Assembly (NCBI RefSeq): GCF_020025155.1
Contig: NZ_CP073751.1
Location: forward strand, 1,240,001 to 1,304,000
DNA from: Halopseudomonas nanhaiensis
Lineage (GTDB): Bacteria > Pseudomonadota > Gammaproteobacteria > Pseudomonadales > Pseudomonadaceae
Length of the DNA: 64,000 nt
Direction: 5' to 3'
Part shown: positions 11,745 through 38,377 of the stretch, piece by piece
Layout: the number at the start of each line of letters is the position of its first letter
How positions within the stretch are numbered: position 1 is the first letter of the stretch
The notes under the pieces: model-generated
Told to the model about the DNA's origin: nothing
Database searches by the model: none
The model's input: the letters and a program-made list of their open reading frames with translations, nothing else
Made by a program: the position numbers and the translations under genes

Positions 11745-13961
11745 TTAACTCTGTTCCGACTGATATACATAATTGTAGTAGCCGGAATTCCCGTATCCGT
11801 AAGCGCCGGCTTTCTTGAGAACTGCGTTAAAGATCGCACCTTTAAGCTGTATATCGTTTTGCTCAAACCGCCGCTTCATGACTTCGATCTCTTTTGCGCC
11901 GTTCACACCAAATCGGGTCACCACCAGACTGGTGCCTGCGCTGCGGCCTACGATTGCGGCATCGGTCACGGCGAGGATCGGCGGGGTGTCTATTATGACC
12001 AGGTCGTACTGGCTGCTGACGTTTTCTATGAAAGCGATGAAGTTCGGGTGCATCAACAGTTCGGACGGGTTCGGCGGAACCTGGCCGCGTGGCACGAAGT
12101 GCAGGTTCTCCACTTCGGTCTGCCGGATGGCCTGATCGCTGGTCAGCTGCGCCGCCAGCAGTTCGGACAGGCCATTGGTTGGCTGCATGCGGAACATCTT
12201 GTTCACATAGCCCTTGCGCATGTCGGCATCGATCAGCAGCACTTTCTGGCCGGCCTGGGCCATGATCACGGCCAGGTTCGATGAGACGAACGACTTGCCC
12301 ACGGACGGGCTGGGGCCGGAGATCATCAGGATGTTGTTCTTCGCTTCCAGCCGCGCGAAGTGCAAACTGGTGCGCAGGCTGCGTAGCGATTCGATGGACA
12401 GGTCCGCGGGGTTGTTGACGGCGAGCAGCAGCGAGCTGGGACCTTTGTCGTTCCGGTCGCGGGCGCGTTTTTCCAGTGCTTCCTGGTCCTTGCTGAAAGG
12501 TATGGCGGCGTAGACGGGCAGGCCGAGCTGTTCGATCACGTCCGGGTCTTCGATGCCGCGATTGAGTGCCTGGCGCAGTAGGACAAGTGCGACGCCGACG
12601 AAGCCGCCCAATAACGTTGCGACCAGCACGATCATCGATTTCTTCGGCGCGACCGGCGCAGCGAGATTCACATCGGCTGTATCCACGACGCGTACGTTGC
12701 CCACGGTGCCCGCACGCAAGACATCCAGCTCCTGCGCGGTGTTGAGCATGGCGGTGTACACCTCGGTGGTCACTGTCACATCGCGAGTGAGGCGCAGCAG
12801 TTCCTGCTGGGTTTGTGGCAGGTTTTCGATCTTGCTCGCCAGTTCGCTGCGCTGGCGCTCCAGCTGGGCGGTCTGTTCGATCAGCGCCTGATAGGTGGGG
12901 TGTTCGCGAGTGAAGCGGCGCTCCAGTTCGGCGCGCTTGAGGTTCTGCTCGCTGATCAGCGTATCCAGCTCGACCAGCTGATCCAGTACGGCCTGGGTCT
13001 CGATGGTGATGTTTACCGACTTGTTGCTGGTCTGGTATTCGTTCAGCGCCTGCTCGTAGCGCTCCAGCTCGGTGCGTACCTGCGGCAGTTGCTGGCGGAG
13101 GAATTCCAGGCTTTGCGCCGCTTCGGCGGAGTTGCGTTCAACGTTCTGGCGTACATACAGGCGGCTGACTTCGTCCAGCACGCGGGTGGCGTAGGCCGGG
13201 TCTTCATGCTTCAGGCTCAGGGCGATGATACCGCTGTCCTTGCCGCGCTCGCTGGCGCCGAGTTCTTCCTGGTATTGCAGGATGGTGTTCAAGCGGCGCT
13301 GGCGGATCAGTTCGAATTGCGTGCCGGGGCGGGCGATGAGCTGAGCGATCTGGACCTGGAAGCCGAACTCGTCGATCTGCTGGCCTACGGTGCCTTCCAC
13401 CAGCAGGTTCCCGTCTTCATCGGCAATCGCGAAGCTGGCGTGGTCGATGGCGGTGAGGGTCAGTGTTTCGCCCAGGTAGCGCGGCGGTACGTCCAGTTGA
13501 AATACGTCGATTACTTCGCCGCCCCAGGCGTAGGCATCCAGGCCGAACAGCGGCTGGGCCACGTCGCCGATTGATTCCGGCTCGAAGCGGCGGGCGGCCC
13601 AGGCGCCGATCGCCGGGAAGTGTTTGGGTGTGGCGATAATGTCCAGCTTGAGGTTCTGCACCGCCTGGCCGATCACGGCGCGGGACTTGAGCAGCTCGAT
13701 CTCGGTTACCGCCTTGGAGGTGGAGCCGAACATGTCGGTCAGTTCACTCAGGCCGCTCAGGCTGCTGCCGGTTTTCTCCTCGATCTGGATCAGCGCATTG
13801 GCCTGGTAGATCGGCGTTGCCAGCAGGGCGTAGGCGATGCCGGCAACGGCGAACAGGAAGGTGAAGCCGAGGATGATCCATTTGCCGTCGATCAGGGCGC
13901 CCAGCAGGGCAAGCAGATCGATTTCATTATCGTCCTGGGTGTGAGTCTGATTCGTTTGCAT
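11745..13961 (-). CDS. wzc: Wzc-like polysaccharide co-polymerase / BY-kinase
   Basis: Inner-membrane tyrosine autokinase controlling chain length and export of capsule or exopolysaccharide. The 738 residues show the N-terminal Wzz domain with its first membrane helix (WIILGFTFLFAVAGIAYALL), a long periplasmic coiled-coil (about 200-400), and a second membrane helix (SMIVLVATLLGGFVGVALVL). The cytoplasmic kinase has Walker A SGPSPSVGKS (about 550), Walker A' LLIDADMRKG and Walker B LVIIDTPP. It ends in a tyrosine cluster (YGYGNSGYYNYVYQ), the usual autophosphorylation tail. The ATG at 13961 has AAGG six bases upstream. Its phosphatase partner Wzb is encoded upstream at 14566. No Wza export gene is visible in the window. 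Confidence 0.93.
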   Translation of the reverse strand: MQTNQTHTQDDNEIDLLALLGALIDGKWIILGFTFLFAVAGIAYALLATPIYQANALIQIEEKTGSSLSGLSELTDMFGSTSKAVTEIELLKSRAVIGQAVQNLKLDIIATPKHFPAIGAWAARRFEPESIGDVAQPLFGLDAYAWGGEVIDVFQLDVPPRYLGETLTLTAIDHASFAIADEDGNLLVEGTVGQQIDEFGFQVQIAQLIARPGTQFELIRQRRLNTILQYQEELGASERGKDSGIIALSLKHEDPAYATRVLDEVSRLYVRQNVERNSAEAAQSLEFLRQQLPQVRTELERYEQALNEYQTSNKSVNITIETQAVLDQLVELDTLISEQNLKRAELERRFTREHPTYQALIEQTAQLERQRSELASKIENLPQTQQELLRLTRDVTVTTEVYTAMLNTAQELDVLRAGTVGNVRVVDTADVNLAAPVAPKKSMIVLVATLLGGFVGVALVLLRQALNRGIEDPDVIEQLGLPVYAAIPFSKDQEALEKRARDRNDKGPSSLLLAVNNPADLSIESLRSLRTSLHFARLEAKNNILMISGPSPSVGKSFVSSNLAVIMAQAGQKVLLIDADMRKGYVNKMFRMQPTNGLSELLAAQLTSDQAIRQTEVENLHFVPRGQVPPNPSELLMHPNFIAFIENVSSQYDLVIIDTPPILAVTDAAIVGRSAGTSLVVTRFGVNGAKEIEVMKRRFEQNDIQLKGAIFNAVLKKAGAYGYGNSGYYNYVYQSEQS

Positions 13962-14310
13962 GTGCAACCTTGCGGATGTAAGCGTTGAGGGCTGAGCGAA
14001 CTCGAACCAAAAAAAGTTTTGAACCTTCCCTGCAGCGGGCGGTCGTATCGGATGGTCGCCTGGTGCCCATTCGTTTGGCCCGGCTGACCCTCTACTGCAC
14101 GCGCCGCTCTGGCGCCTGCCTTTGAGCTGTATCGGCCAGTGCCTGCCACACGTTAGGCGCATGCAAGGACCTGCTCTGCGATCGAAACGAAAGCAGTGCG
14201 CATGTTCTGAGCGGAGTAGGGGCTGAATCGGCTTGCTGCAACCGGGTTCTGCTGGTTGCCAATCGGGGGAGATCTGGCCCGGGGGGCCGGAGGGTTACCT
14301 TCCGTTGGAC

Positions 14311-14341
14311 AATGCTACCGCCACAGGATTTACAGTTTCTT
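14311..14341 (-). promoter_or_regulatory. JUMPstart / ops element of the exopolysaccharide operon
   Basis: On the minus strand, 14322 to 14311 reads GGCGGTAGCATT, agreeing with the ops core GGCGGTAGC-N-T. Upstream sequence CTGTAAATCCTGT matches the JUMPstart consensus part CTGTAAAGCCAGG. Ops in non-template DNA recruits RfaH to paused RNA polymerase. An rfaH gene is present at 24434. The orientation fits transcription into wzc. Confidence 0.75.
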
Positions 14342-14437
14342 CCTGAAGACTTCCATGTAATCGAATTTTTCACGCCATCGGTGTGGCGTCATGCTATGCA
14401 TGACCCATGCCACGGTGATGGCTTAATACTGGCGCGT

Positions 14438-14565: not shown

Positions 14566-15006
14566 TCAGCGGACGAGATAGGGCAGCCAGGCGTTGGCGG
14601 CCTTGTCGAGGATCTGGTAGACATGCACGAAAGCCTGGCGCTGCTGACGGTACGGGTCTGGCGTTTCACAACCATTGAGCCAGCGGCCGAAGAGGAACGT
14701 CTTGCCCCGCGCCTCGGGCGTGAGCTCGCAGATCGCCTTGATATGCCGCGTTTCCATGGTGAGGATCAGGTCGGCATCGCGGACCATTTCCCGCGTCAGC
14801 TGGCGGGCCATGTGGTCGTGCAGGCTGATGTCATGTTCAGCCATGACGGCGGCGGCGGTGGGGTCTACGCCCTTGCCGACCAGGGCGCCCAGGCCCGCTG
14901 AGGTGACCTTGATGTCGTAGCCTTGCAGCTTGTGTTTGAGCAGCGCTTCGGCAGTAGGGCTACGACATATATTCCCTACACATACGATCAATATCGATTT
15001 GAACAT
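14566..15006 (-). CDS. wzb: Low-molecular-weight protein tyrosine phosphatase, Wzb-like
   Basis: Cytoplasmic phosphatase that removes phosphate from the tyrosine tail of Wzc. The 146 residues fit the family. The P-loop CVGNICRS is at residues 9-16 (C9 nucleophile, R15), with the catalytic aspartate in DPYRQ near residue 117. It lies upstream of wzc in the same direction but is separated by about 600 bp with a promoter and ops site, so it may be on its own transcript. Wza would normally precede it and is not present. Confidence 0.93.
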   Translation of the reverse strand: MFKSILIVCVGNICRSPTAEALLKHKLQGYDIKVTSAGLGALVGKGVDPTAAAVMAEHDISLHDHMARQLTREMVRDADLILTMETRHIKAICELTPEARGKTFLFGRWLNGCETPDPYRQQRQAFVHVYQILDKAANAWLPYLVR

Positions 15007-22576: not shown

Positions 22577-24019
22577 ATGAGCGGAACCTATCCATTCATC
22601 GAGCACCACGGAGCGGTGCAGGGTGTGACCGGGTCGTGCCATCAACTATGGTTGACGGAGCACGACAGCCTGCTGGTCGATTGCGGCATGTTCCAGGGCG
22701 CGGAGCTCTCCAACGCAGGGGCGGGTGCAGGCAAGCTGGAGATCGAGTTCGACCTGTCCAGCGTGCGAGCGCTGATCGCCACGCATGTGCATATCGACCA
22801 TATCGGCAGGCTGCCCTGGTTGATCGCGGCCGGGTTCAAGGGGCCGGTGCATTGCACGGAGCCGTCAGCAATGCTGATGCCTGCTGTGCTGGAAGATGCC
22901 TTCATGCTGAGCGTTAAACGCGATCGCGACCTGACAGAGAAATTTCTCGCGCTTGTGGAGCCGATGCTGCAAGGGCACGCCTACCGCGAATGGATCTCGC
23001 TCATCGATCGGGACGACCTCGTTTGTCGGGTCCGGTTCCGGCAGGCAGGGCACATTCTCGGGTCGGCGTGGGTTGAGGTGGACGTGCGCTACCCCGCAAC
23101 CGGGGCGAAGCATCGCATTGTGTTCTCCGGTGATCTTGGCGCGCCGCATGCGCCCTTGCTGCCGCCACCGAAGTCGGCCTGGCAGGCGGACGTGGTGGTG
23201 CTGGAGAGTACCTATGGCGACCGCCTGCACGAAGACCGCCGCACTCGCCGCGAGCGCCTGCAGAAGGCGCTGGAGTCGGCGCTGGCCGATGGCGGAACGG
23301 TGCTGATCCCTGCGTTCAGCATTGGCCGTACGCAGGAGCTGCTCTACGAGATCGAAGCGATCATCTCCAGCGCAAAAAAGCGCAGCAAAGGCGGGCCGGG
23401 CAAGAATCTTGACTGGGAGAATCTGCCGATCATTCTGGATGCGCCGCTGGCCACCCGCTTCACCACGCTATACCGCCAGCTCAAGCCATGGTGGGACAAG
23501 GAAGCGCTGCGCCGCGTGCGTCAGGGCCACAAGCCGCTGGGGTTCGAGCAGTTGCTGACGGTGGACTCGCACGACAAGCATATCGCCATGGTCAATCGCC
23601 TGGCCCAGACGAAGCAGCCGGCCGTGGTGATCACCAGTAACGGCATGTGCAGCGCCGGGCGGATCGTCAACTACCTGAAGGCCATGCTGCATGACCCGCG
23701 ACACAACGTGCTGTTCGTCGGCTACCAGGCACGCGGCACCCCGGGGCGGGACATTCAGCAGTATGGGCCGGGTGGCGGCTGGGTCGAGCTTGATGGCGAG
23801 CGCTATGACATCCGTGCGGGCATCGAGACGCTGGGTGGCTATTCCGCGCACGCGGATCAGAAGGGCCTGGTGAAATTCGTCACCGGCATGCGCCACTGGC
23901 CCAGGCAGGTGCGGCTGGTGCATGGCGATGACGCAGCCAAGCAACGGCTGGCGGGGTTGTTGAAGGAAGCAGCGCGGCGCAAGGGTGTGGCGATGGAAGT
24001 GGTGATTCCGACCGCGTGA
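22577..24019 (+). CDS. MBL-fold beta-CASP metallo-hydrolase (predicted RNase)
   Basis: Predicted zinc-dependent ribonuclease of the CPSF73/RNase J-like superfamily, cytoplasmic. The 480 residues show the metal motif THVHIDHIGR (HxHxDH) at about 74-83 and the third-ligand histidine in RQAGHILGSAWVEV. Further motifs are SGDLG, the beta-CASP cap with STYGDR and PAFSIGRTQELLYEI, and the C-terminal SNGMCSAGRI and GYSAHADQKGLVKFV. The ATG at 22577 has AAGGGA seven bases upstream; a more upstream in-frame ATG is unlikely. Monocistronic, followed by REP repeats. Confidence 0.9.
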   Translation: MSGTYPFIEHHGAVQGVTGSCHQLWLTEHDSLLVDCGMFQGAELSNAGAGAGKLEIEFDLSSVRALIATHVHIDHIGRLPWLIAAGFKGPVHCTEPSAMLMPAVLEDAFMLSVKRDRDLTEKFLALVEPMLQGHAYREWISLIDRDDLVCRVRFRQAGHILGSAWVEVDVRYPATGAKHRIVFSGDLGAPHAPLLPPPKSAWQADVVVLESTYGDRLHEDRRTRRERLQKALESALADGGTVLIPAFSIGRTQELLYEIEAIISSAKKRSKGGPGKNLDWENLPIILDAPLATRFTTLYRQLKPWWDKEALRRVRQGHKPLGFEQLLTVDSHDKHIAMVNRLAQTKQPAVVITSNGMCSAGRIVNYLKAMLHDPRHNVLFVGYQARGTPGRDIQQYGPGGGWVELDGERYDIRAGIETLGGYSAHADQKGLVKFVTGMRHWPRQVRLVHGDDAAKQRLAGLLKEAARRKGVAMEVVIPTA

Positions 24020-24433: not shown

Positions 24434-24943
24434 ATGTCTGGCAATCAGAGCAGTTCCCCCCAGTGGTATCTCATCCAGTGCAAGCCCCGCCAGGACGCCC
24501 GCGCTGAAGAGCATCTGCGCAATCAGAAATTCCCCTGTTACCGCCCGGTGCACCCGGTCGAAGCCATGCGCCGAGGCAAGCGCGTGATGCTCGACGAATC
24601 CCTGTTCCCTGGTTACCTGTTCATCAACCTCTGCCAGACCACTGACAGCTGGCACAGCATTCGCTCGACGCGCGGTGTAGCGCGGCTAGTCACCTTCTGC
24701 GACCGTCCGGTGGCCGTGCCGGGTGACATCATCGTAGACATTCGCCAGCGTCTGGCCACCAACAAGGCACAGCCGCTTTTTGAGTCGGGCTGCAAAGTGA
24801 CGGTGTCCGATGGGCCGTTTCGAGATATCGAGGCGGTGTTCTGCAAAGCAGATGGAGAAGATCGTGCGGTGATCCTGCTCAACCTTTTGCAGCGTGAGCA
24901 GTTGTTGCATATTCCGCTCAGAGCGCTAAAGGCAGCGGGTTGA
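24434..24943 (+). CDS. rfaH: RfaH, NusG-family antitermination factor
   Basis: Operon-specific elongation factor that binds RNA polymerase paused at ops, suppresses pausing and Rho termination, and recruits ribosomes. The 169 residues have the NGN domain opening WYLIQCKPRQDARAEEHLRN, then FPGYLFINL, and end in a KOW-type domain (CKVTVSDGPFRDIEAVFCKA). The Q-C-K-P opening and lack of the longer housekeeping NusG features favour RfaH. The start at 24434 has GGAG nine bases upstream and discards an unlikely N-terminal extension. It lies between two clusters that each carry an ops element. Confidence 0.92.
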   Translation: MSGNQSSSPQWYLIQCKPRQDARAEEHLRNQKFPCYRPVHPVEAMRRGKRVMLDESLFPGYLFINLCQTTDSWHSIRSTRGVARLVTFCDRPVAVPGDIIVDIRQRLATNKAQPLFESGCKVTVSDGPFRDIEAVFCKADGEDRAVILLNLLQREQLLHIPLRALKAAG

Positions 24944-25555
24944 TCTGACCTGCATGCTTAAAGAACTGTGCGCAGCGAAGCGCAAGGACTACAGCCGCAG
25001 CTCAGTGGATCCACGAAGACACCGCGACATGCGGTAGCACAAGCGTCTGGGTAACTCTATTTTCAGGACACCCTGCCGTGGCTCTCGTGAAAAAAACGCC
25101 TTTGCGCGCGCCGGTTAGGTCACTGCTAATGGGGTGCGACGCGAGGTTCCATAAAAAGTGCGTGGATTGGAGCGGAGTAGTTCTACTGACAAGCCGGCCA
25201 CCTCTTATAACTCCAGCTCCTCCTGTTCGACCGGCAAGCGAGAGGGATACCTTTACGGAGCAAACGAGCAGATTGCGCGCCCACCGAAGCTTAGCTGGTA
25301 GGCGATGTAACGTCTTTGAGACCCAGCAAGGCACCGAAGGTAACCCGAGAGGCGGTATCCATCCCTTCGCCGCCTCGGGCGAGACTTCGTGATGCTGCTT
25401 CGCCTGAGAAGTCATTGAAAAACCCGGCAACCAAGGAATCGCTCCTCAAGAGTGGCCAAAACTTGCTACAAGCTTTAAGTGCAAAAACGCCTGATGCCGT
25501 GCCCCTGAAAGTTCCGCCTACAGTTTAGATACGATAGAGGGCAACGCGATATATC

Positions 25556-25710
25556 GTGCAAGACTGGGGGCCAATACGCACCAATTGCGAGCGGGCGATC
25601 CGTTGGGATGACCCAGTACTCGCGATCGACTGGCCGCTCCGCGATAGGTTGACTGTTGTCACAAGGACGAAATTGCTGGCCCGCTTTTGGAACGGTACGT
25701 GGATGAGTGA
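25556..25710 (+). pseudogene. rmlC: Remnant of rmlC (dTDP-4-dehydrorhamnose 3,5-epimerase), C-terminal end
   Basis: Three reading frames in succession spell the end of RmlC. First, KTGGQYAP (about 25560-25585) is comparable with the family's YKTTDYYAP. Next comes CERAIRWDDPVLAIDWPL (25587-25640), comparable with ERCIVWNDPELAIDWPL. Last is HKDEIAGPLLERYVDE and a TGA at 25710, comparable with SxKD-type ends. At least two frame changes separate them, so the gene is dead. No other rml gene is recognisable in the window. Confidence 0.7.
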
Positions 25711-25825
25711 GTCTATGTCTAATTGATCAACGTTGGCGCTTGTTGGTTACTCAGCTCGAAGGTCAAGACAGAGCACAATTTGCCGCCATCGATTCGCTTG
25801 ACGGTGACCAGCTGCCCATTTTGCG

Positions 25826-25855
25826 CTGACAAGGTCACCCCGGAGCGTCTATCAT
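25826..25855 (+). promoter_or_regulatory. Candidate promoter of the O-antigen-like cluster
   Basis: CTGACA (25826-25831) and TATCAT (25850-25855) with an 18-bp spacer. The predicted start lies about 90 nt upstream of the ops element, the expected arrangement. Confidence 0.4.
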
Positions 25856-25952
25856 CTCGCCTGCGCCTGTCAGGCCATTATTGAAGTATGCTATCGAAGG
25901 TGACTGTTGCGCGTCGCAGACCAGCCTCAATGGAAAGCAGTAGAAATCTCGG

Positions 25953-25964
25953 GGCGGTAGCGTG
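25953..25964 (+). promoter_or_regulatory. ops element of the O-antigen-like cluster
   Basis: GGCGGTAGCGTG on the plus strand is identical to the enterobacterial ops sequence and is preceded by GG as in JUMPstart. It lies 170 bp upstream of wzx and about 1 kb downstream of rfaH, in the direction of the cluster. Confidence 0.88.
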
Positions 25965-26133
25965 CGCGATGCAGCCAGCCGGCTGTGCAAGAGCCTTCTT
26001 ACGCCACGCGGAGGCTTGGTGATCCGGGTTCGATGCTCAGGCTCACCGATGTAATTCTGTATTTGGAGCCGAGTTTGCGACCTGCTGAACGAATATTCCT
26101 GACGAACGAGCTCTGCGTTGGAAAACTCCCCGG

Positions 26134-27585
26134 ATGAATTCCTCGACCTTCCTCGGGAAGCTCTTGTTGTACGTTCCGGTCAAGCTGATCCCTGCGGCTA
26201 CCGGCATATTCTTTATCGTCCTCCTCTATTCGGTTCTGCCCGAAGGTGGATATGTCAGCTATTCAGTGAGCATCGCGAGTGCTCTGATCGCTGCGCAGTT
26301 GGGTAGTGCATGGATAGGTAATTCCTATATTTACTGTGTGGCAAGCGCCGATAATCGAGCGACGCTTTTCTACAGCTGTCTATGGTCCGTCCTTATTATA
26401 GCCCCCGTGGCGGCTATAGCTGCCGGAGTCGTATCGACGGTTTTCGTCGACGATTATGCGTTCTACAACGTCGTGCTGCTGTGCTTCAGCCAAGCGTTGT
26501 TCTTTTTCCTTTCTTCGGTGTATCAAGCGACGTTTCAGGTGCGACATCAGTTGGTCGCCATCCTCCTCCAGGCGGTCGGCCAAGTCGTGACCGTCCTTGT
26601 GATTTTCGAGCGGATAGCAGTGAACTACAAGTTTGCAATCCTGTCGCTATCGGTTGGCTATCTCGCGGCATCCTTGTTTCTCCTGCTGGTTAAGCTGAAG
26701 GAGCACGGTGCGGAAAACTTGATCGTAGGGAAGAAAGCCTTCGTAGCCAGTTTTACGGCCATATATCAATATGGCTCTGCATTGTCGCCGTGGATGCTCG
26801 GAATGCTGATCATGGCTGCCGCAGACCGATTTGCTCTCGGGCACTATAACCTTGCGGGGGGTGATGCCTACCTCTCTTTGAAAGACTTGTTCATAGGCGC
26901 GTCGGGGCTATTAAGCATGCCACTGCTTATGATGGTCCATTCGTTGTTGATCAATCGATTCCGCGAAGGCCATTTCGCGATTGACATCGTCGAAGCTTCA
27001 ATTTCCTTTCTGGTTATTGCCTTTGCCGCGTTATGGGTTGCGCTAGACCTTTGGGGGCTCGAGCTTTTCGAGCGGATTGCTGACAGGCAAGTCGGTTTGT
27101 CGATAAGCACCATCTTTCTGGCATTCTGCGGCGTTTTTCTGGCTTCCGTCTCGGTTTACGCTCAAAAACGGATGGAGGTGCACCGCAAGATAGGTAGGCT
27201 GGCGATACTTTCCATAGGCTGCGCTCTGGTCTCGATCGTACTCTGTTTCATCGCAGGCGCGACAGGAAAGATTCTCGGTGTCGCTGTTGCCGCCGTGCTC
27301 GCACAAATGCTGTATCTGGCTGTCTTGATGTACACTCTTCGCAAGAAAATTCAGCTCGTCAAATTCTGCATGCCGATCCTTTGGGCATTTTTACTATTCG
27401 GCATTGGGGAGCTATTGAGCCATGCCATGGGGCCGTCAAGAAACTCGTTGGGATATTGGATAGGTAGCCTCATGTTGCTCGCAGGTTTTTCTTTTTTCGC
27501 TTGTCTGGCTCTCTGGAAGGGTATCGATTGGAAATCCTTCACAGAACGGGGACGGCGGACATCCATAAGACGAAGCCTGGCTTGA
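26134..27585 (+). CDS. wzx: O-unit flippase, Wzx-like
   Basis: Predicted inner-membrane translocase of the undecaprenyl-linked O-unit. The 483 residues have about 12-14 hydrophobic helices in MOP-superfamily style, with charged loops (KEHGAENLIVGKKAF; AQKRMEVHRKIGR). It is the first gene after the ops element. It is AT-richer than the flanking rfaH but less so than the first cluster's core. Not similar by eye to the wzx at 10349, so the two clusters handle different units. Confidence 0.8.
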   Translation: MNSSTFLGKLLLYVPVKLIPAATGIFFIVLLYSVLPEGGYVSYSVSIASALIAAQLGSAWIGNSYIYCVASADNRATLFYSCLWSVLIIAPVAAIAAGVVSTVFVDDYAFYNVVLLCFSQALFFFLSSVYQATFQVRHQLVAILLQAVGQVVTVLVIFERIAVNYKFAILSLSVGYLAASLFLLLVKLKEHGAENLIVGKKAFVASFTAIYQYGSALSPWMLGMLIMAAADRFALGHYNLAGGDAYLSLKDLFIGASGLLSMPLLMMVHSLLINRFREGHFAIDIVEASISFLVIAFAALWVALDLWGLELFERIADRQVGLSISTIFLAFCGVFLASVSVYAQKRMEVHRKIGRLAILSIGCALVSIVLCFIAGATGKILGVAVAAVLAQMLYLAVLMYTLRKKIQLVKFCMPILWAFLLFGIGELLSHAMGPSRNSLGYWIGSLMLLAGFSFFACLALWKGIDWKSFTERGRRTSIRRSLA

Positions 27586-27638
27586 TGGAGAGTAGCGTTC
27601 CACGCGAAATGCACTAGATACGACTATTAAGGATCCGG

Positions 27639-28970
27639 ATGCTGGATATATTTAAGCTGCACCTAACCCTCGGCAGGAGCGACGCGCTAGTGGCTATCGT
27701 TGCCGCTATGATGTGTATCCCCATCGTGCTGTTTCAGCTACTGGGCTATGACATCAACCCTGCCTTTTTCTTGGTTCCTCTGATTGGACTGGGGTTCTTG
27801 AATGACTTCGATCGCACGGGGGCAGCCTACATACTTTCGATGGTAGCTGGTGTTGTTTCGATATTTGCAGCGGAAGCGGTATCGCCTGACGGCGAGACGA
27901 TCAGGCACCTTCTTTCGTTAGTCCTTATCATGTTCGCGCCTTCATTCTTGTTCTTGGGGCGATTTTTAGCGAAGAGTAGCGGGATTAGCCGGATTTTCTT
28001 CTGGTTTTCCATGTTTTCATCGATATTCCTGATCGTGGTCGCTGCCCGCGTGATTCTTCTGGACCAAGCCGTGAGGATTTACATAGGTTCTCTTGGCTTT
28101 GCGGCCATGAACGCCGAGTTTCTAGGACTGCCGGTTTTTGCGACCTTCGGGGTTCTCAGCCTTGCGCACCTAATTTGTTTGCAAGCCATGATTCTTTGCG
28201 GAACTCTAATTGGCGGTGTGGCGAACCGGTGGCTATCAGCAGTAATGTGGCTCGCTCTTTTATCCGCATCGTTTCTGATCTTCGGAAGTGAGTCACGCAG
28301 CGCGCAGCTGCTGTTGATCTGGATTTTTGGGTCTGTCGTCCTATTTGCATTTCGCGATCGACAGAATGCGCGAAAAGCTCTCTTCGCGCTTCTCGCCCTT
28401 GTCGCTGCGTTTGGTCTCACTTACGTCAGAGGTATAGAGGCGAGTCGGATGTTGTCTTCGCTGGACGCGATCAAGGGGCCAGCGTCTGCACAGGAAGGGC
28501 ACTTGTCAGGAACCGCAGAGGCAGACAGGGTCTGGCAGGAAAAGGCCGATCAGTTTGCCACGGGTCGCATTCAACTTCTCGTTGAAGGTGTAAGTGAGGC
28601 GGTAGCCAGCCCGCTCTTCGGCAATGGTTTCTCAGGGTACGGTCGATATACGTCAGAAGAGATTTCTCCGGGCTTGGCAGCCAATACATCTACTCACGTT
28701 TATTTCCTCACGTTGGTCTGGAAAGGAGGATTGATTTTCTTCATTCCATTCATCGCCATGCTCTTTTTCAACCTGAGCTCGGCAGTTCGACGCACCAGGA
28801 TGAGTGAGCCTTCGCCCGAGCGCTTTTTTGCCTGGTCGGCAGTCTTGATGGCTTTCGGCCCGATGGCGCTAGTCTGGGATATTTTGATAGTTCCAAGCGC
28901 CGGAGCGGTGGCGTTTTTCCTGTTCGGTATGCTCGGCGCAAAGAGACACTCAGTAGGCCCGAGCGCGTAG
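27639..28970 (+). CDS. wzy: O-unit polymerase, Wzy-like
   Basis: Predicted membrane polymerase of 443 residues with about 10-11 helices. A large loop (about 270-340, RMLSSLDAIKGPASAQEGHL...ATGRIQLLVEGV) contains the SPLFGNGFSGYGRYT stretch, resembling O-antigen ligase/polymerase proteins (GNGxxGY). An AAGGA ribosome site lies before the ATG. Position directly after wzx supports the call; a WaaL ligase cannot be excluded. Confidence 0.75.
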   Translation: MLDIFKLHLTLGRSDALVAIVAAMMCIPIVLFQLLGYDINPAFFLVPLIGLGFLNDFDRTGAAYILSMVAGVVSIFAAEAVSPDGETIRHLLSLVLIMFAPSFLFLGRFLAKSSGISRIFFWFSMFSSIFLIVVAARVILLDQAVRIYIGSLGFAAMNAEFLGLPVFATFGVLSLAHLICLQAMILCGTLIGGVANRWLSAVMWLALLSASFLIFGSESRSAQLLLIWIFGSVVLFAFRDRQNARKALFALLALVAAFGLTYVRGIEASRMLSSLDAIKGPASAQEGHLSGTAEADRVWQEKADQFATGRIQLLVEGVSEAVASPLFGNGFSGYGRYTSEEISPGLAANTSTHVYFLTLVWKGGLIFFIPFIAMLFFNLSSAVRRTRMSEPSPERFFAWSAVLMAFGPMALVWDILIVPSAGAVAFFLFGMLGAKRHSVGPSA

Positions 28971-29142
28971 CGTTTTGCGCGCTGCCGACAGTGGTCAGGC
29001 CTTCTGTTTTGCCTGGGGTCTGGACGTTACTATCGCTTCGCTTGGTCCGTGGCAGTTGTTCTGGCGTATACTGCGCTCCGCTTTTTGTTTCACCCGTCAG
29101 CGCCCCGACCGCGACCGTCATTACGATCAGCACTGAGAATCT

Positions 29143-30369
29143 ATGAATATTCTGTTGGTGGGTTTTTGTGTAAGCCCGGACTATTTCGAGAGATACACTG
29201 CTGGCGATGCGCTCCCTCAGGTTGCGGCGTACAAGCTTGAGTCGCGATTCTTGCGTGCTTTGCGCATTGGTGGGGCGCGTGTGCGGACGATTTCCACAGC
29301 GGCAGTCTCGACTTATCCACGCAATCCGCACGTGCTCCTGCCGAGTCAGACTGGGCAAGCTCAGGACGGGCGCGGGGCACGGGTCCTTCCGCTGATCAAC
29401 TTGCCGGTGTTGAAACTCGCGTCGCGCTTTTTGGGGGTGCTGACCGCGTTGATTTCTCAGCCCAGGTCCGAAAAGCCGGTGGTTTGCTTATATTCGGCCC
29501 ATACGCCAAATCTGCTCGCTGCGTATTTGTACTCGACGTTCGTGTCGGCTCCCTTCTTCGTGTACGTGCCGGATCTGCCGGTTTATATGGATATGGGGCT
29601 CAACCGGTCGTTGCCTGTCAAATGGCTGAAAAGGCTGGACGTCAAACTGGTAGATGCCATGCTGGCTCGGGCGAGTGGCGTTTTTGTCGCTGCCAAGCCA
29701 ATGGCTGAGGACAGTTCCGCCTGGGCGCATGTGCCTGCGCTAGTAGTGGAGGGAATATGTGATGACTCGGTCGCGGTGGATGTTGAGTATCCGGCTTCAC
29801 TACCCGACTGCTCAGGCAAAAAAATTATATTTTATGCTGGTTCGGTTAACCGCGCTTACGGCATTGTCGAACTCGTCGAAGCGTTCAAGAGGGCGGGATC
29901 TTCCTACGAGCTCTGGCTGTGCGGCCGTGGCGACCTAGAGGACTACCTGCGAAGCCAATCGCAGGATTGCGCTGCGATCAAATACCTCGGATTCGTACCG
30001 CCCGCGCATGCTCAAGCTATTCAGCAGCGTGCCTCGTTGCTTGCCCTGACCCGTGACCCAGCGGAAAAGTACACTCGGTACTCATTTCCTTCCAAGATTC
30101 TGGAGTACATGGCCAGTGGTGTCCCAGTCATGACAACCAAGCTTGATGGGGTTCCTGCAGAGTACGATGCCTATCTGAACCTCATTGAAGAATTCTCGGT
30201 TGATTGTATAGCGCGGACAATCGAAAGATTGGACCGCATGGATGAAACCGTTTTGCTGCGAAAAGCTGACGATGCCCGTGACTGGCTCTTGCGTGAAAAG
30301 ACCAGCGGTGCAGTCGGCGCAAGAATCGTGCGTTTTGTGGAGGCGAATTGTGAACGAATTTCAAGGTAA
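29143..30369 (+). CDS. Glycosyltransferase (GT4-like)
   Basis: Predicted GT-B transferase of 408 residues, beginning MNILLVGFCVSPDYFERYTA. The C-terminal domain shows KKIIFYAGSVNRAYGIVELV, the KYLGFVPPAHAQAI loop and FPSKILEYMASGVPVMTTKL with the conserved family glutamate. A 172-nt gap separates it from wzy, and its end overlaps fnlA by 20 nt. Acceptor and donor unknown; L-FucNAc or another HexNAc derivative is plausible. Confidence 0.82.
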   Translation: MNILLVGFCVSPDYFERYTAGDALPQVAAYKLESRFLRALRIGGARVRTISTAAVSTYPRNPHVLLPSQTGQAQDGRGARVLPLINLPVLKLASRFLGVLTALISQPRSEKPVVCLYSAHTPNLLAAYLYSTFVSAPFFVYVPDLPVYMDMGLNRSLPVKWLKRLDVKLVDAMLARASGVFVAAKPMAEDSSAWAHVPALVVEGICDDSVAVDVEYPASLPDCSGKKIIFYAGSVNRAYGIVELVEAFKRAGSSYELWLCGRGDLEDYLRSQSQDCAAIKYLGFVPPAHAQAIQQRASLLALTRDPAEKYTRYSFPSKILEYMASGVPVMTTKLDGVPAEYDAYLNLIEEFSVDCIARTIERLDRMDETVLLRKADDARDWLLREKTSGAVGARIVRFVEANCERISR

Positions 30370-31390
30370 GACTCTTCTGATCACCGGCGGCACTGGCTCC
30401 TTCGGTAATGCCGTGCTCAAACGGTTTCTTCAGTCCGAGTTGGGCGAGATCCGAGTTTTTAGCCGCGATGAAAAGAAGCAGGACGACATGCGGAAGATCT
30501 ACAGTCATCCCAAGCTGAAGTTTTACCTGGGGGACGTCAGAGATTATCCGGGCATTCTGAATGCGACACGCGGGGTGGATTACATATTTCATGCAGCCGC
30601 CCTAAAGCAGGTTCCGTCGTGTGAGTTCCATCCGATGGAAGCGGTCAAGACCAACGTGATCGGTACTGAAAACGTGCTGGAAGCGGCGATCCAGAATCAG
30701 GTCAAGCGCGTGGTGTGCTTGAGTACCGATAAAGCGGTGTACCCGATCAACGCAATGGGTATTTCCAAGGCGATGATGGAAAAGGTCATGGTTGCCAAGT
30801 CGCGCCACGCAGATGATGCCAAGACGGTCATCTGTGGCACTCGTTACGGCAACGTGATGGCATCCCGTGGCTCTGTCATTCCCCTATTCATCGAGCAGAT
30901 CAGAGCGGGCAAGCCGCTGACCTTGACCGATCCGAACATGACTCGCTTCATGATGACGCTCTCCGACGCGGTCGACCTGGTCCTGCATGCCTTCGAGCAC
31001 GGCACCAACGGCGATATCTTCGTGCAGAAAGCACCCGCTGCAACCGTGGAAACCCTGGCGCGCGCGCTGGTTGAACTGCTCGACAAACCGGAACACCCGA
31101 TTCAGGTAATCGGAACGCGTCATGGTGAAAAGCTGTACGAAGCACTGCTCAGCCGCGAAGAAATGGCCGCCGCTGAAGAGGCAGGTCAGTACTTCCGGGT
31201 GCCCCCGGACCTGCGCGACCTGAACTACGCGAAGTATGTCGAACAGGGTGAAGAGAAAATCTCCCGTAGTGAAGACTACAACTCTCACAACACCGAACGG
31301 CTGGATGTGGAAGGCATGAAGCGCTTGTTGTTGAGACTCGAGTTCATGCGCGCGATCCAACGTGGCGAATACGCAACGCCGGAGGAATAG
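30350..31390 (+). CDS. fnlA: UDP-GlcNAc 4,6-dehydratase / 5-epimerase of the UDP-L-FucNAc pathway
   Basis: First enzyme of UDP-N-acetyl-L-fucosamine synthesis (FnlA/WbjB/CapE), an SDR acting on UDP-GlcNAc. The GTG at 30350 has GGAGG six bases upstream, giving 346 residues; an in-frame ATG further upstream would extend it implausibly. The NADP loop is TGGTGSFGNAVLKRF, and the active site is STDKAVYPINAMGISKAMMEK, where Met replaces the usual Tyr as in the family. FHAAALKQVPSCEFHPMEA is also typical. It is followed at once by fnlB and fnlC. Confidence 0.93.
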   Translation: MNEFQGKTLLITGGTGSFGNAVLKRFLQSELGEIRVFSRDEKKQDDMRKIYSHPKLKFYLGDVRDYPGILNATRGVDYIFHAAALKQVPSCEFHPMEAVKTNVIGTENVLEAAIQNQVKRVVCLSTDKAVYPINAMGISKAMMEKVMVAKSRHADDAKTVICGTRYGNVMASRGSVIPLFIEQIRAGKPLTLTDPNMTRFMMTLSDAVDLVLHAFEHGTNGDIFVQKAPAATVETLARALVELLDKPEHPIQVIGTRHGEKLYEALLSREEMAAAEEAGQYFRVPPDLRDLNYAKYVEQGEEKISRSEDYNSHNTERLDVEGMKRLLLRLEFMRAIQRGEYATPEE

Positions 31391-31393
31391 CCG

Positions 31394-32512
31394 ATGAAAG
31401 TGCTGATCACCGGAGCGAACGGCTTCGTAGGCAAAAATCTTGTTGCCCACCTGGGGGAGCGCAAGGATGTCGACGTTCACACGTTTACCCGCGAAGACTC
31501 ATTGGAGCGCCTCGGCCAACTGGTCGGGGATGCGGAGTTCATTTTCCACCTGGCGGGGGTGAATAGACCGGAAGACCCAGCGGATTTCACCATAGGCAAC
31601 ACGGATCTCACCCGGGCGCTCTGTGATGCGGTCGCCAGGAGCGGACGCGAGATCCCGTTGATATACACCTCGTCCATTCAGGCCGAAAGTTCCAACCCCT
31701 ACGGCGAGAGTAAGAAGGCAGCGGAGCAGTCGCTGATCGACCTTGCATCGTCGACCGGTTCTCCGGTACACGTTTTCAGGCTGCCGAATGTGTTTGGCAA
31801 GTGGGCCCGGCCCAATTACAACTCGGCTGTCGCGACCTTCTGTCATAACATTTCACGTGGTCTGCCCATCAAGGTGAACGACCCTGACGCCCCGCTTCGA
31901 CTGGTTTACATCGATGACGTGGTGGATTGTTTCGTTTCTCTTATGGACGGTAAGGTCGACGGCCAGCCGTTCATGGACGTCGACCCGGTGTATGCCACCA
32001 CAGTCGGAGCTCTGGCTAGACAGATTCAGGCATTTCGAGACAGCCGCCAGACGCTCACGACGGATGCCGTCGGTACTGGTCTGACGCGCGCGCTTTATTC
32101 CACCTATCTGAGCTATCTGCCGCCCGAGAGCTTCAGCTATACGCTCCCCAAGCACGGGGACGAACGCGGCGTATTCGTCGAAATGCTCAAGACGAAGGAC
32201 TCGGGGCAGTTCTCTTTTTTCACCGCGCATCCGGGTATCACCCGCGGTGGCCATTATCATCACTCGAAAACCGAAAAGTTCCTGGTTATCAAGGGTCAGG
32301 CTTGTTATCGGTTCCGACACATCGTCACGGGTGAATTTTACGAGCTGTTCGCATCGGGTGATGAGCCAGTAGTCGTTGAAACCGTACCCGGCTGGACCCA
32401 TGACATTACCAATGTCGGAAGTGACGAAATGCTGGTGATGCTCTGGGCGAACGAGATTTTCGACCGGGAGCGGCCGGATACCTACGCCAGGCCGGTGGGC
32501 ACTGAAGCTTGA
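31394..32512 (+). CDS. fnlB: Bifunctional reductase / 3-epimerase of the UDP-L-FucNAc pathway
   Basis: FnlB/WbjC/CapF type enzyme converting the keto intermediate to UDP-6-deoxy-L-talosamine derivative. The 372 residues contain an N-terminal SDR domain (TGANGFVGKNL; YTSSIQAESSNPYGESKKAAE with the catalytic Tyr-Lys). A C-terminal cupin domain begins near 250 (KHGDERGVFVEML, GGHYHHSKTEKFLVI with metal histidines). GGAGGA lies before the ATG, 3 nt after fnlA. Confidence 0.93.
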   Translation: MKVLITGANGFVGKNLVAHLGERKDVDVHTFTREDSLERLGQLVGDAEFIFHLAGVNRPEDPADFTIGNTDLTRALCDAVARSGREIPLIYTSSIQAESSNPYGESKKAAEQSLIDLASSTGSPVHVFRLPNVFGKWARPNYNSAVATFCHNISRGLPIKVNDPDAPLRLVYIDDVVDCFVSLMDGKVDGQPFMDVDPVYATTVGALARQIQAFRDSRQTLTTDAVGTGLTRALYSTYLSYLPPESFSYTLPKHGDERGVFVEMLKTKDSGQFSFFTAHPGITRGGHYHHSKTEKFLVIKGQACYRFRHIVTGEFYELFASGDEPVVVETVPGWTHDITNVGSDEMLVMLWANEIFDRERPDTYARPVGTEA

Positions 32513-32530
32513 CTGCTACAAGGATTTCAA

Positions 32531-33661
32531 ATGAAGAAACTTAAGGTCGTGACGGTGGTGGGCACCCGTCCGGAAATCATTCGGCTTTCTCGGGTCATGG
32601 CAAAGCTGGACGAACATTGCGAACATATCCTGGTTCACACTGGCCAAAACTACGATTACGAACTCAATGAGATATTTTTTCAGGACTTGGAAATAAGAAA
32701 GCCTGATCATTTTCTCAACGCGGCCGGAGCCAGCGGAGCGGAGACAATCGGCAATGTCATCATCGCTGTGGACAAGGTCCTGGCTCAGGTTCAGCCAGAC
32801 GCTTTGCTGGTGCTGGGCGATACTAACAGCTGCATGGCGGTCATTCCTGCCAAGCGCCGGAAAATCCCGACTTTTCATATGGAGGCGGGTAACCGCTGTT
32901 TCGATATGCGGGTTCCGGAGGAGATCAACCGCCGCATCGTCGACCATACTGCAGACATCAACTTGACCTATAGCACCATCGCGCGGGACTACCTGCTGCG
33001 CGAGGGGCTGTCACCGGATATGGTCATCAAGACCGGCAGCCCGATGTACGAGGTGCTCAACCATTACCGATCCGGCATCGAGAATTCGGACATACTCCAA
33101 CGCCTGGGACTGGAAGCTGGCAAGTTCTTCGTCGTGAGCGCTCACCGGGAAGAGAACATCGATTCGGATGCCAACTTCTCCGGCTTGGTCGATGTGCTGA
33201 ATACCGTCGCGGAGCAGTACGGGTTTCCGGTCATCGTATCGACGCACCCGCGAACCCAAAAACGCGTCGATGCACTCGGAGTCGATTTTCATCCCAATGT
33301 CCAGCTCCTCAAGCCGCTGGGCTTCAAGGACTACAATAAGCTGCAGCTTGCGGCTAAAGCTGTGTTGTCCGACAGCGGCACGATCAATGAAGAGTCATCC
33401 ATCCTCAATTTCCCGGCTTTGAATATCCGTGAAGCGCATGAGCGGCCTGAAGGCATGGAAGAGGCTGCTGCGATGATGGTGGGACTGAACAAGGAGCGTG
33501 TCTTGCAGGGGCTCGCGATATTGGAGGGCCAGCAGCGCGGTGAACAGCGAACGCTTCGGTTGGTTGGCGATTACAGCATGCCGAACGTGGCAGAGAAGGT
33601 CGTGCGCATCGTCCACAGTTATCGTGATTATGTGATGCAGAACGTCTGGAAGCGCTTCTGA
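32531..33661 (+). CDS. fnlC: UDP-N-acetyl sugar 2-epimerase making UDP-L-FucNAc
   Basis: FnlC/WbjD/CapG: epimerises C2 to give UDP-N-acetyl-L-fucosamine. The 376 residues show WecB-fold motifs: VGTRPEIIRLSRVM, HTGQNYDYELNEIFF, LVLGDTNSC, ESSILNFPALNIREAHERPE. The AREAHERPE-type end and the pathway context separate it from WecB. An AAGGA ribosome site lies upstream. Confidence 0.93.
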   Translation: MKKLKVVTVVGTRPEIIRLSRVMAKLDEHCEHILVHTGQNYDYELNEIFFQDLEIRKPDHFLNAAGASGAETIGNVIIAVDKVLAQVQPDALLVLGDTNSCMAVIPAKRRKIPTFHMEAGNRCFDMRVPEEINRRIVDHTADINLTYSTIARDYLLREGLSPDMVIKTGSPMYEVLNHYRSGIENSDILQRLGLEAGKFFVVSAHREENIDSDANFSGLVDVLNTVAEQYGFPVIVSTHPRTQKRVDALGVDFHPNVQLLKPLGFKDYNKLQLAAKAVLSDSGTINEESSILNFPALNIREAHERPEGMEEAAAMMVGLNKERVLQGLAILEGQQRGEQRTLRLVGDYSMPNVAEKVVRIVHSYRDYVMQNVWKRF

Positions 33662-33672
33662 GGGCCGGGCAC

Positions 33673-34827
33673 GTGGGACGCAAACGTACCGACCTCGCAA
33701 TCGTGAACCGTAGCTTCTGGCCTGACAGCCAGGTGATTGGCGAAGGTTTGCTTCAGTTCGCTGAAACTGCTGCCCGAGACCACACTGTCTGCGTTCTGAC
33801 GCAGACGAGTGGTAACCTGGAGCAAACCTTGGCTGACGCTGGCCGGGGAGCGAATGTCCAGATACGTGCCTGTCGATCCTACACGACTTCCGGCAGCGGC
33901 TTGGCCAAGCGTATCGCGGAGGCCATTTTCTTCATGGCGTGGACGTTTTTCAGCCTGGTCCGCGTGAAGCCTGCGACGGTTTATGTCTCGACCAACCCGC
34001 CGGTAGTCGTACCCTTCGTGGTGGCGGTCTACTGTCGATTGTTCCGGGCTGCCTATGTTTACCACCTGCAGGACATTCATCCCGAGGCCGCAAACATTGT
34101 GGTACCGCTGAATCGGCTGGTCTTCAAGGTACTGCAAGCGTTGGATAACTTCACCATCCGGAATGCGGCGGCGGCGGTGACCCTGTCCGAAGACATGAGA
34201 ACCTACATCAACGCTCGCGCTTCAGGTGACATACCAATACACCTGCTCGATAATCCCTCTTTCGACAGGGTGCCAGCGCAAACGGGTTTGCCTGAGGGGG
34301 ATGTCGTGTTCTGCGGCAATGCTGGCCGGTTGCAGCGGATCCCGTTGGTGGTGGCGGCGATACGCGCCTATTTGAAGGCAGGCGGTGGCCTACGGTTCAC
34401 CTTTGCCGGCGGCGGAGTACACGCTCAGGATATCGAAGCATTGGCGTCGGAATATGAGCAGGTGCAATACAAAGGGGTGATCTCCGCGGTCGAGGCGGCC
34501 GAGCTGGTGGCTGGACATCGATGGGCGTTGCTGCCCATCGATGACGAGGTTACGCGTTACGCTTTCCCCAGCAAGTCCTCCGGTTATGCGCTCTCCGGCG
34601 CGGGCGTACTGGCCATATGCGGTGAAGGGACGAGCGTCGCGCGCTGGGTGCGAGATCTGAATCTGGGTGTCGTTTGCGAACCAGAGCACGATGCGCTGAT
34701 AGCTTGTTTTTCGTCTCTGGAGGGTGCGTCTGCGCCGATCACGGTGCCTGACGAACTTAGGGAGCGGCTGCAAATCTCGCATTTCGCACAACGTCTTACA
34801 GATATCACGCTTGCCGGCGGCGCATAA
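33673..34827 (+). CDS. WbuB-like glycosyltransferase (probable L-FucNAc transferase)
   Basis: Predicted GT4 enzyme of 384 residues from a GTG start. The opening TDLAIVNRSFWPDSQVIGEG, the VYVSTNPPVVVPF segment and the YHLQDIHPEAANIV motif are typical of the WbuB group, which in known O-antigens transfers L-FucNAc. The C-terminal domain has FCGNAGRLQRIPLVV and FPSKSSGYALSGAGVLAIC. It lies directly after fnlC, as wbuB does in FucNAc loci. Confidence 0.85.
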   Translation: MGRKRTDLAIVNRSFWPDSQVIGEGLLQFAETAARDHTVCVLTQTSGNLEQTLADAGRGANVQIRACRSYTTSGSGLAKRIAEAIFFMAWTFFSLVRVKPATVYVSTNPPVVVPFVVAVYCRLFRAAYVYHLQDIHPEAANIVVPLNRLVFKVLQALDNFTIRNAAAAVTLSEDMRTYINARASGDIPIHLLDNPSFDRVPAQTGLPEGDVVFCGNAGRLQRIPLVVAAIRAYLKAGGGLRFTFAGGGVHAQDIEALASEYEQVQYKGVISAVEAAELVAGHRWALLPIDDEVTRYAFPSKSSGYALSGAGVLAICGEGTSVARWVRDLNLGVVCEPEHDALIACFSSLEGASAPITVPDELRERLQISHFAQRLTDITLAGGA

Positions 34828-34830
34828 CAA

Positions 34831-35439
34831 GTGGTGGGAATGATGTTGAAGAGAATCATGGATTGTCTGGTCGCCTTGCTTGCCTTGCTATTGCTGGCAC
34901 CTGTGCTTGCTATCGTAGCTTGGCAGGTACGCTGCAACCTTGGAACGCCAGTGTTGTTTCGGCAGGTACGCCCGGGTTTGAATGGTAAGCCGTTCGAGAT
35001 GGTGAAATTCCGCACTATGAAAGACGCGGTTGATGCGAACGGGACTCCCTTGCCTGATTCCGAGCGCCTCACGTCATTCGGCCAGTTTCTTCGTTCGACC
35101 AGTTTGGATGAGTTGCCCGAACTGTGGAATGTCTTGAAAGGCGACATGAGCCTGGTTGGACCACGGCCTTTGTTGATGGAGTACCTTCCGTTGTATTCGG
35201 CTGAGCAGTACCGTCGCCATGAGGTAAGACCGGGAGTCACCGGGTGGGCCCAGGTAAACGGACGTAACGCCTTGGGATGGAATGAAAAGTTCATGCTCGA
35301 CGTCTGGTACGTCGACAATCAAACGCTGTCGTTGGATATCAAGATTCTATTTTTGACCGTGAAAAAAGTGCTAGTGCGCGACGGTATCAGCGCTGATGGC
35401 GAAGCCACAGCAGCGAGATTTACTGGGAATGACTCGTGA
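34831..35439 (+). CDS. PglC-like initiating phosphoglycosyltransferase (small monotopic PHPT)
   Basis: Transfers the first sugar-1-phosphate from its UDP donor to undecaprenyl phosphate at the inner membrane. The 202 residues contain one N-terminal re-entrant hydrophobic helix (DCLVALLALLLLAPVLAIVA), KFRTM, the catalytic Asp-Glu pair in STSLDELPELWNVLKGDMSL, and VGPRPLL. It lacks the four extra helices of WbaP/WcaJ. The start may be GTG 34831 or ATG 34840/34843. Neighbouring pglD- and pglE-like genes point to UDP-N,N'-diacetylbacillosamine as donor. Confidence 0.9.
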   Translation: MVGMMLKRIMDCLVALLALLLLAPVLAIVAWQVRCNLGTPVLFRQVRPGLNGKPFEMVKFRTMKDAVDANGTPLPDSERLTSFGQFLRSTSLDELPELWNVLKGDMSLVGPRPLLMEYLPLYSAEQYRRHEVRPGVTGWAQVNGRNALGWNEKFMLDVWYVDNQTLSLDIKILFLTVKKVLVRDGISADGEATAARFTGNDS

Positions 35440-36053
35440 AGCGGCTGGCTATCTTGGGCGCCAGCGGCCACGGGAAAGTAATCGCCGATTGCGCGGAGGT
35501 TTGCGGCTGGGAGACAGTCATATTTTTCGACGATGCTTGGCCAGCTAAGCGATCGATTTCCAGGTGGTCTGTTGAAGGTGATATGGCGGCCTTGCTAAAG
35601 CGGTTATCAGATTTCGATGGCGTGTTGGTTGCCATAGGTAACAATGCTGTACGGCAGTCCAAGCTGACCGCATTGGCTCAACACGGCGCGAAGCTGACGA
35701 CGTTGGTTCACCCGTCAGCTTTAGTCAGTCGTTCCGCTCGCGTTGGAGTCGGTTCGGTTGTACTTGGCGGGGTCGTGATAAACGTTGATGCTTCAATCGG
35801 TATGGGCGCGATCATCAACACTGGTGCGACAGTTGACCATGACTGCGTGCTTGGAATTGCGGTTCATATCAGCCCAGGAGCTCATTTGGCAGGAGGGGTC
35901 GTAATAGGAGATCAGAGTTGGCTTGGCATCGGTAGTTGTGTTCGCCAGCTAGTGCGTATTGGCTCTGGTGTCACAGTGGGAGCCGGAGCGGCTGTGGTGA
36001 GCGATGTTGCTGACGCATGTACCGTTGTCGGTGTTCCCGCTCGGGTGCTCTGA
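35436..36053 (+). CDS. PglD/NeuD-family sugar N-acetyltransferase
   Basis: Predicted acetyl-CoA dependent acetylation of a UDP-4-amino-6-deoxy sugar. The 205 residues start with a Rossmann-like segment (LAILGASGHGKVIADCA), and a left-handed beta-helix (about 90-205) follows. The catalytic His is in GATVDHDCVLG, with a HISPGAHLAGGVVIGD coil. The GTG start overlaps the preceding stop as GTGA. Size and layout match PglD of Campylobacter. Confidence 0.88.
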   Translation: MKRLAILGASGHGKVIADCAEVCGWETVIFFDDAWPAKRSISRWSVEGDMAALLKRLSDFDGVLVAIGNNAVRQSKLTALAQHGAKLTTLVHPSALVSRSARVGVGSVVLGGVVINVDASIGMGAIINTGATVDHDCVLGIAVHISPGAHLAGGVVIGDQSWLGIGSCVRQLVRIGSGVTVGAGAAVVSDVADACTVVGVPARVL

Positions 36054-36117
36054 CGGGCCTCCACGTCTTCCGATTAATACAGCCAGGACTTGGCTGCCTT
36101 CGTTCCGAGATATTTCT

Positions 36118-37441: not shown

Positions 37442-37489
37442 TATGGCATGCATGGACATCGAATTGATTTTTTGATACATGGAGTTCTC

Positions 37490-38368: not shown

Positions 38369-38377
38369 GGGGCGTGC

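Follow-up and report, generated by a model that had tools for sequence, protein, structure and literature searches.

A probable RfaH/JUMPstart circuit in a linked chromosomal layout between two polysaccharide gene clusters of Halopseudomonas nanhaiensis

The region analysed is a stretch of 64,000 nucleotides (the window), corresponding to positions 1240001-1304000 of the single-contig genome (3,653,147 bases). It contains an rfaH gene, whose product is here called RfaHa, located between two polysaccharide clusters that are each led by an exact ops element. Its main features are as follows, R1 being the hairpin-plus-ops model described below and RF01707 the Rfam JUMPstart model:

473..13961, minus strand: polysaccharide cluster led by the minus-strand ops, ~13.5 kb (profiles and ORFs)
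14310..14352, minus strand: JUMPstart-like hairpin CAGGA/TCCTG plus ops; R1 39.3 bits (an R1 training row), RF01707 18.2 bits
14312..14322, minus strand: exact ops GGCGGTAGCAT, followed by T, with no G at position 12
14566..15006, minus strand: wzb-like tyrosine phosphatase gene upstream of the minus-strand ops (NF007520 198.7 bits, under the cut-off of 243)
22577..24019, plus strand: beta-CASP metallo-beta-lactamase gene (Pfam Beta-Casp, RMMBL and Lactamase_B), commonly adjoining rfaH on its 5' side within the genus
24434..24943, plus strand: rfaH (RfaHa), NusG-family specialised antiterminator of 169 aa (NCBIfam TIGR01955)
24944..25940, no strand: spacer of ~1 kb from rfaH to ops, compared by blastn
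25826..25855, plus strand: promoter-like CTGACA-18-TATCAT, 10 of 12 positions (pattern scan)
25922..25965, plus strand: JUMPstart-like leader element with degenerate hairpin and irregular fold; R1 24.4 bits, RF01707 21.5 bits
25953..25963, plus strand: exact ops GGCGGTAGCGT (with the G after it, GGCGGTAGCGTG), TG present at positions 11-12
26134..44838, plus strand: polysaccharide cluster led by the plus-strand ops, ~18.7 kb, with every predicted gene on the plus strand

The plus-strand cluster comprises flippase-like, Wzy_C (PF04932), glycosyltransferase (Glycos_transf_1) and sugar-nucleotide genes. Wzy_C and Glycos_transf_1 were assigned by Pfam and the other gene names by reading, and the flippase-like first gene gave no Pfam match at 1e-5. 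The minus-strand cluster carries wzc, glycosyltransferase and acyltransferase genes together with gmd-, fcl- and manC-like genes; its Pfam matches were Glycos_transf_2, GT4-type and hexapeptide, the remaining names being given by reading, and wzc scored below the equivalog cut-offs of the Wzc models and above the cut-off of eps_fam. The gene run that separates both clusters (17599-22357) lies on the minus strand and includes several lipoprotein-like genes by reading. A protein matching Pfam PF09994, the catalytic domain of T6SS Tle1-like phospholipases, is encoded at 15135-16409 and adjoins wzb, and short inverted repeats of the gcgctcctac type, also found at loci L032 and L033, occur between the beta-CASP gene and rfaH (24020-24190).

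The presence of an RfaH-type protein at 24434-24943, as recognised in an earlier note on this DNA, was confirmed by curated models. RfaHa passed the NCBIfam profiles TIGR01955 (175.7 bits against a cut-off of 144.5) and NF006534 (141 against 124), remained below the cut-offs of UpxY (63.6 versus 100 bits) and LoaP (48.2 versus 125 bits), and did not reach that of NusG in the curated profile search. Its best PDB matches were E. coli RfaH, and among matches in named genomes it was nearest to RfaH of Halopseudomonas and of the related Pseudomonas saudimassiliensis (62-64% identity). In E. coli RfaH, residue E48 pairs with R138 in autoinhibition; E48 is present in RfaHa and R138 is aligned. AlphaFold gave RfaHa a beta C-terminal domain (pTM 0.58), and recruited E. 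coli RfaH was the second-best Foldseek match of the model. Since an E48-bearing RfaH of Vreelandella, modelled by the same procedure, was also beta, the fold does not separate cis from trans action. Compared with the nearest relative, G034, the nucleotide identity of rfaH declines along the gene and drops over its last 60 bases, and the clusters beyond differ; from this fall-off, rfaH looks like a cluster-exchange boundary.

Both ops elements reported previously (the minus-strand one at 14311, its exact position being 14312-14322) were found in the leaders of polysaccharide clusters, and no other exact copy of GGCGGTAGNNT is present in the window. A home-made ORF scorer placed both in intergenic DNA. 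The minus-strand element falls between the wzb-like and wzc-like genes, with wzc as the next gene on its strand 361 bp further on, and the plus-strand element precedes the flippase-like gene by 181 bp. The two differ at the 3' end: with one more base the minus-strand site reads GGCGGTAGCATT, that is, an exact motif with TT where TG is expected at positions 11-12. According to the available text of PMC5995543, TG at these positions is common to all validated E. coli ops targets, and loss of G12 abolishes the U11 pause but not recruitment.

The bare motif proved to be no evidence by itself. The 11-base ops GGCGGTAGNNT has 29 copies in the 3.65-Mb genome, compared with 41 for the reversed control, and was rejected as a criterion for lack of enrichment. 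Three of the 29 copies lead polysaccharide genes (the two in the window and one beside the second RfaH described below), 16 fall inside predicted genes, and three more are intergenic and have short runs of genes. A further three share one identical flank; the one checked lies within 23S rRNA and was rejected as a target, and the other two carry the same flank. The ops-like sites at 190969, 1410740, 2497943 and 2986250 were set aside as well, as they belong to a separate repeat with four copies in the genome and none in the control, although RfaH action there is not thereby disproved. This repeat (G000:C1:190969, 1410740, 2497943 and 2986250) spans ~70-100 bp, has the form GACAGCYGT ... ATGCC ... 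GGGCGGTA and precedes low-GC genes. A simple attC-like pattern gave one match near two of its copies, and the repeat may mark the boundary of a gene cassette or an island.

Relatives have a stem with paired changes ahead of ops, for example CCTCAAGA/TCTTGGGG. It corresponds to the stem-loop of JUMPstart elements, described in 2010 from the leaders of polysaccharide genes (RF01707; accessible text of PMC2864571). In an alignment of 26 of 55 sites (A1), most of them with a visible stem in the standard register, so that the covariation figures lean to structure, 95.2% of cells pair, compared with 89.6 in shuffles and at most 63.0 in slid versions, and 17 double-change cells were counted against 6.1. 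The model R1, comprising hairpin plus ops, was trained on these 26 rows, one of which is the minus-strand site of the window. Each whole-genome hairpin search scored 150 first-look candidates, a depth at which weak sites can be missed.

With R1, the two sites of the window ranked highest in the genome, at 39.3 bits (minus strand) and 24.4 bits (plus strand), the next one scoring 19.2 (150 of 1172 candidates scored). Of their hairpins, the minus-strand one is the better formed. RF01707, which is independent of R1, ranked the plus-strand site first (21.5 bits) and the minus-strand site third (18.2 bits) in the genome; its gathering score of 35 bits was reached by no site in the window or in locus L034. 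Relative G034 has a near-identical counterpart of the minus-strand hairpin and ops. Thus, unlike the bare motif, hairpin plus ops lifts both sites above chance by ranking them at the top of the genome. Many unrelated ops-like sites without operon bias, which the earlier note regarded as adverse to its reading, were accordingly found for the bare motif but not for the motif with its hairpin.

When R1 was applied to 37 genomes of the genus, 37 sites scored at least 39 bits, followed by 33.9, 28.5 and 24.4, with a tail from 22.2 down. Fifteen of these 37 strong sites are R1 training rows, most of them chosen for lying by rfaH, which favours the counts of linkage and co-occurrence that follow. In the 10 assemblies with a one-contig chromosome, 11 of 15 strong sites lie within 25 kb of rfaH (0.22 expected), or 5 of 9 once six training rows are removed. 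Strong sites occur in 25 of the 29 genus genomes with RfaH and in one of the eight without it (Fisher p 2.3e-4), and minus the 14 training genomes they occur in 11 of 15 RfaH-bearing genomes (p 0.009). The four RfaH-bearing genomes without a strong site comprise three incomplete assemblies (75-92%) and G032, which has a stop inside rfaH. All 14 sites whose flanks were examined precede polysaccharide or sugar-precursor genes by reading, with a profile for one gene at nine of them.

The linked arrangement itself is widespread. RfaH is present in 29 of the 37 genus genomes, with 33 copies in all, of which one is interrupted by an internal stop. An exact ops lies within 1.3 kb downstream of 20 of the 33, and the reversed motif downstream of one; in this count G012 and G020 contribute less than 1.3 kb of downstream sequence, and loci L015-L018, from genus genomes already counted, were not added. 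In 18 of the 20 pairs, ops is 98-249 bp past the rfaH stop codon. In other genera, 15 of 20 loci picked by hand to spread the genera have ops downstream of rfaH (reversed motif, 0 of 20), and the tandem is also found in Amphritea and Pseudomonas citronellolis. The figure was 5 among the 29 best-scoring loci of the family, four of them with hairpin (reversed motif, 0 of 29). Of the 24 such loci without ops, 21 belong to one genus, g15, where RfaH is present and a site of 39 bits was found in none of 12 genomes searched, the one weak match scoring 24.3. A frequent order in the genus is beta-CASP gene, rfaH, ops and a variable cluster, often with divergent wzb/wzc on the opposite flank. Another group carries galU-ugd-pgi after rfaH and lacks a nearby ops; there, G001, G008, G011, G017 and G019 have sites scoring at least 39 bits at a distance of 8-23 kb. 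Four Vreelandella/Halomonas records each carry two sites upstream of rfaH and on the opposite strand. On the tree, the linked state changes 12 to 13 times, with at least 6 to 7 changes forced by well-supported branches, which indicates repeated gain or loss of the layout.

The linkage of rfaH and ops is therefore a conserved layout of many relatives and not a one-off. The earlier suggestion of a resemblance to plasmid-style regulation, or any view of the linkage as odd, is not supported, given the 20 of 33 genus copies, the several other genera and the linked rfaH genes already in print. For Pseudomonadaceae, the layout offers a simple genome rule for spotting co-regulated surface-polysaccharide clusters.

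The spacing in the window departs from that of most relatives: the gap between rfaH and ops is 1009 bp, compared with 63-249 bp in 32 of 39 rfaH-ops pairs (a set that leaves out L121 and L136), and the spacer at 24944..25940 showed blastn similarity to none of the other loci compared. Promoter-like sites of the quality of that at 25826..25855 numbered two in the region scanned against a mean of 0.8 in shuffles, which is not evidence of function. Taken together, the long gap, the promoter-like site and the lack of a match to other loci suggest that rfaH and the plus-strand cluster are probably separate transcripts here.

The genome encodes a second RfaH, located 1.97 Mb along the contig from the window; the third match to the NusG family is NusG itself.

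G000:C1:3234758-3235210, strand not stated: second RfaH gene (RfaHb), TIGR01955 170.5 bits, over the cut-off

An exact ops GGCGGTAGCGTG lies 137 bp downstream of this gene and is followed by an operon of exopolysaccharide type with a porin-like gene (profile) and wza-, wzc-, cpsB-, wcaJ- and ugd-like genes (by reading). The site scored 17.2 bits with R1, among the tail matches, and its leader has a different hairpin. RfaHa and RfaHb form separate lineages on the tree. The ops-contact residues, which we take to be K10, Q13, R16, H20, T72 and R73, and also R23 (E. coli numbering), are retained in both paralogues with the sole exception of R23, which is N in RfaHa. The ops cores at the targets of the two are likewise alike (GGCGGTAGC[GA]T).

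This bears on the proposal that one local factor serves both clusters. An RfaH does lie between two ops-led clusters, and a common factor is the simplest reading of that; however, since RfaHb exists with its own ops and exopolysaccharide operon, RfaHa is not established as the sole factor acting at the window.

We consider it quite probable, from the arrangement of genes and sites, that the window holds a chromosomal RfaH/JUMPstart circuit in a linked layout. With E. coli RfaH as the guide, RNA polymerase on each cluster would pause at ops, the non-template strand exposed at the pause would recruit RfaH, and RfaH would stay bound as polymerase and ribosome traverse the long polysaccharide operon. 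RfaHa and RfaHb are most likely each able to act in trans on all three ops-led clusters, and would thus probably be at least partly redundant. Action in trans is likely, as relatives have strong sites separated by 0.84-2.06 Mb from every rfaH (G007, G021 and G013). In agreement with this, G013 has a beta-CASP/JUMPstart/glmS locus (L199) without rfaH, whose JUMPstart scores 62.3 bits, and the fragmented G012 likewise has such a locus without rfaH (L204), an RfaHb-type gene being located elsewhere in both genomes. Several observations weigh against the circuit: the degenerate plus-strand hairpin, the 1009-bp gap, the TT in the minus-strand ops and the sub-threshold RF01707 scores, and also the tail score of the RfaHb site, the linkage of no more than 5 of the 29 best-scoring family loci and the absence of strong sites from g15.

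The circuit in the window is perhaps partly cis-acting, and a possible, though doubtful, alternative gives cis action the leading part: in many relatives, rfaH would be first on a transcript running through JUMPstart into the cluster, and RfaH would load its own operon preferentially, with trans action secondary. The spacing in relatives is consistent with such a transcript, as the gap from rfaH to ops is at most 137 bp in 24 of the 39 pairs, and in the shortest (63 bp, L147) the stem begins ~35 bp past the rfaH stop codon. A home-made scan detected a terminator-like site in 2 of the 39 gaps, and promoter-like sites matching 10 of 12 positions in 2 of the 24 short ones. Among linked copies, 12 of 42 have Q in place of E48, compared with 3 of 44 among unlinked ones (Fisher p 0.01, uncorrected for kinship), and non-autoinhibited RfaH has been argued to act near its own gene (PMC13015549, available text). 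The window fits this alternative poorly, with its 1009-bp gap, its own promoter-like site and an RfaHa that retains E48, and the unlinked strong sites and the G013 locus without rfaH favour trans action over a cis module. We also advance, as a rather speculative extension, that the tandem of rfaH, JUMPstart and cluster might be a self-delivering module, in which rfaH would lead the ops-bearing transcript in much of the family and the factor would be made beside its polymerase. If this were true, the tandem would represent an extant intermediate, standing between NusG paralogues that act in cis and are always on and the trans-acting, autoinhibited RfaH of E. coli, the E48 lock would have been lost in at least two lineages, and surface-sugar clusters could be exchanged along with their own antiterminator or directly beside it.

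It is unlikely that the two RfaH proteins are insulated from each other, RfaHa serving both window clusters and RfaHb the distant exopolysaccharide operon exclusively. Each rfaH does adjoin one ops-led cluster, the lineages are separate and the RfaHb leader hairpin is different, but the ops cores are alike, both paralogues retain the known contact residues, and in G013 and the fragmented G012 classic JUMPstart sites persist with RfaHb as the only type found. Least probable is that the ops matches arose by chance or are remnants in decay, with rfaH as a passenger, an anchor gene at the border where clusters are exchanged, a reading suggested by the unenriched bare motif, the degenerate plus-strand hairpin and the loss of similarity to G034 at the rfaH 3' end ahead of differing clusters, but opposed by the conserved position, strand and hairpin of the sites within and outside the genus and by their co-occurrence with RfaH.

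The circuit proposed here resembles that of E. coli in its RfaH-family protein, in the exact ops in the leaders of long polysaccharide operons and in the JUMPstart context, and differs from it in the position of rfaH, which has a likely target on either side, and in the presence of a second rfaH. With JUMPstart RF01707 it shares the conserved stem-loop in polysaccharide leaders (PMC2864571, accessible text), although the sites here fall below the gathering threshold. Bacteroides UpxY and the Shewanella cluster-7 RfaH are likewise specialised NusG paralogues encoded with their polysaccharide operon, according to the section text of PMC7593976, which, Fig. 6C and the supplements aside, does not mention ops for these operons; RfaHa, for its part, fails the UpxY cut-off. 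The same text describes envelope-gene neighbours for RfaH clusters CL2 to CL8 and Shewanella rfaH genes inside operons. In the O-antigen locus of Plesiomonas, rfaH is similarly a fixed flank of a variable cluster, and an adjoining ops or hairpin goes unmentioned in the accessible part of the article (PMC9723277). The EPS273 locus of P. stutzeri 273 includes an RfaH-domain protein (PMC5532660, in part), and many specialised NusG paralogues are encoded within or near their operons (PMC6391919, in part). The available text of PMC13015549 counts RfaH next to an operon in 17 of 212 metamorphic and 7 of 10 monomorphic cases, and divides RfaH into mostly unlinked, autoinhibited, trans-acting and linked, non-autoinhibited, cis-acting proteins. 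In the main text of the accessible literature on linked rfaH (figures, supplements and most subscription papers aside), we found no description of the rfaH-JUMPstart/ops-cluster tandem. Linked rfaH genes are thus already known, and the tandem is a variant of a known control system. Its layout combines linkage with ops and is present in many genomes. Together with the natural variants (JUMPstart kept without rfaH, two paralogues, E48 or Q48), it allows the succession of steps in the evolution of RfaH to be tested in existing species.
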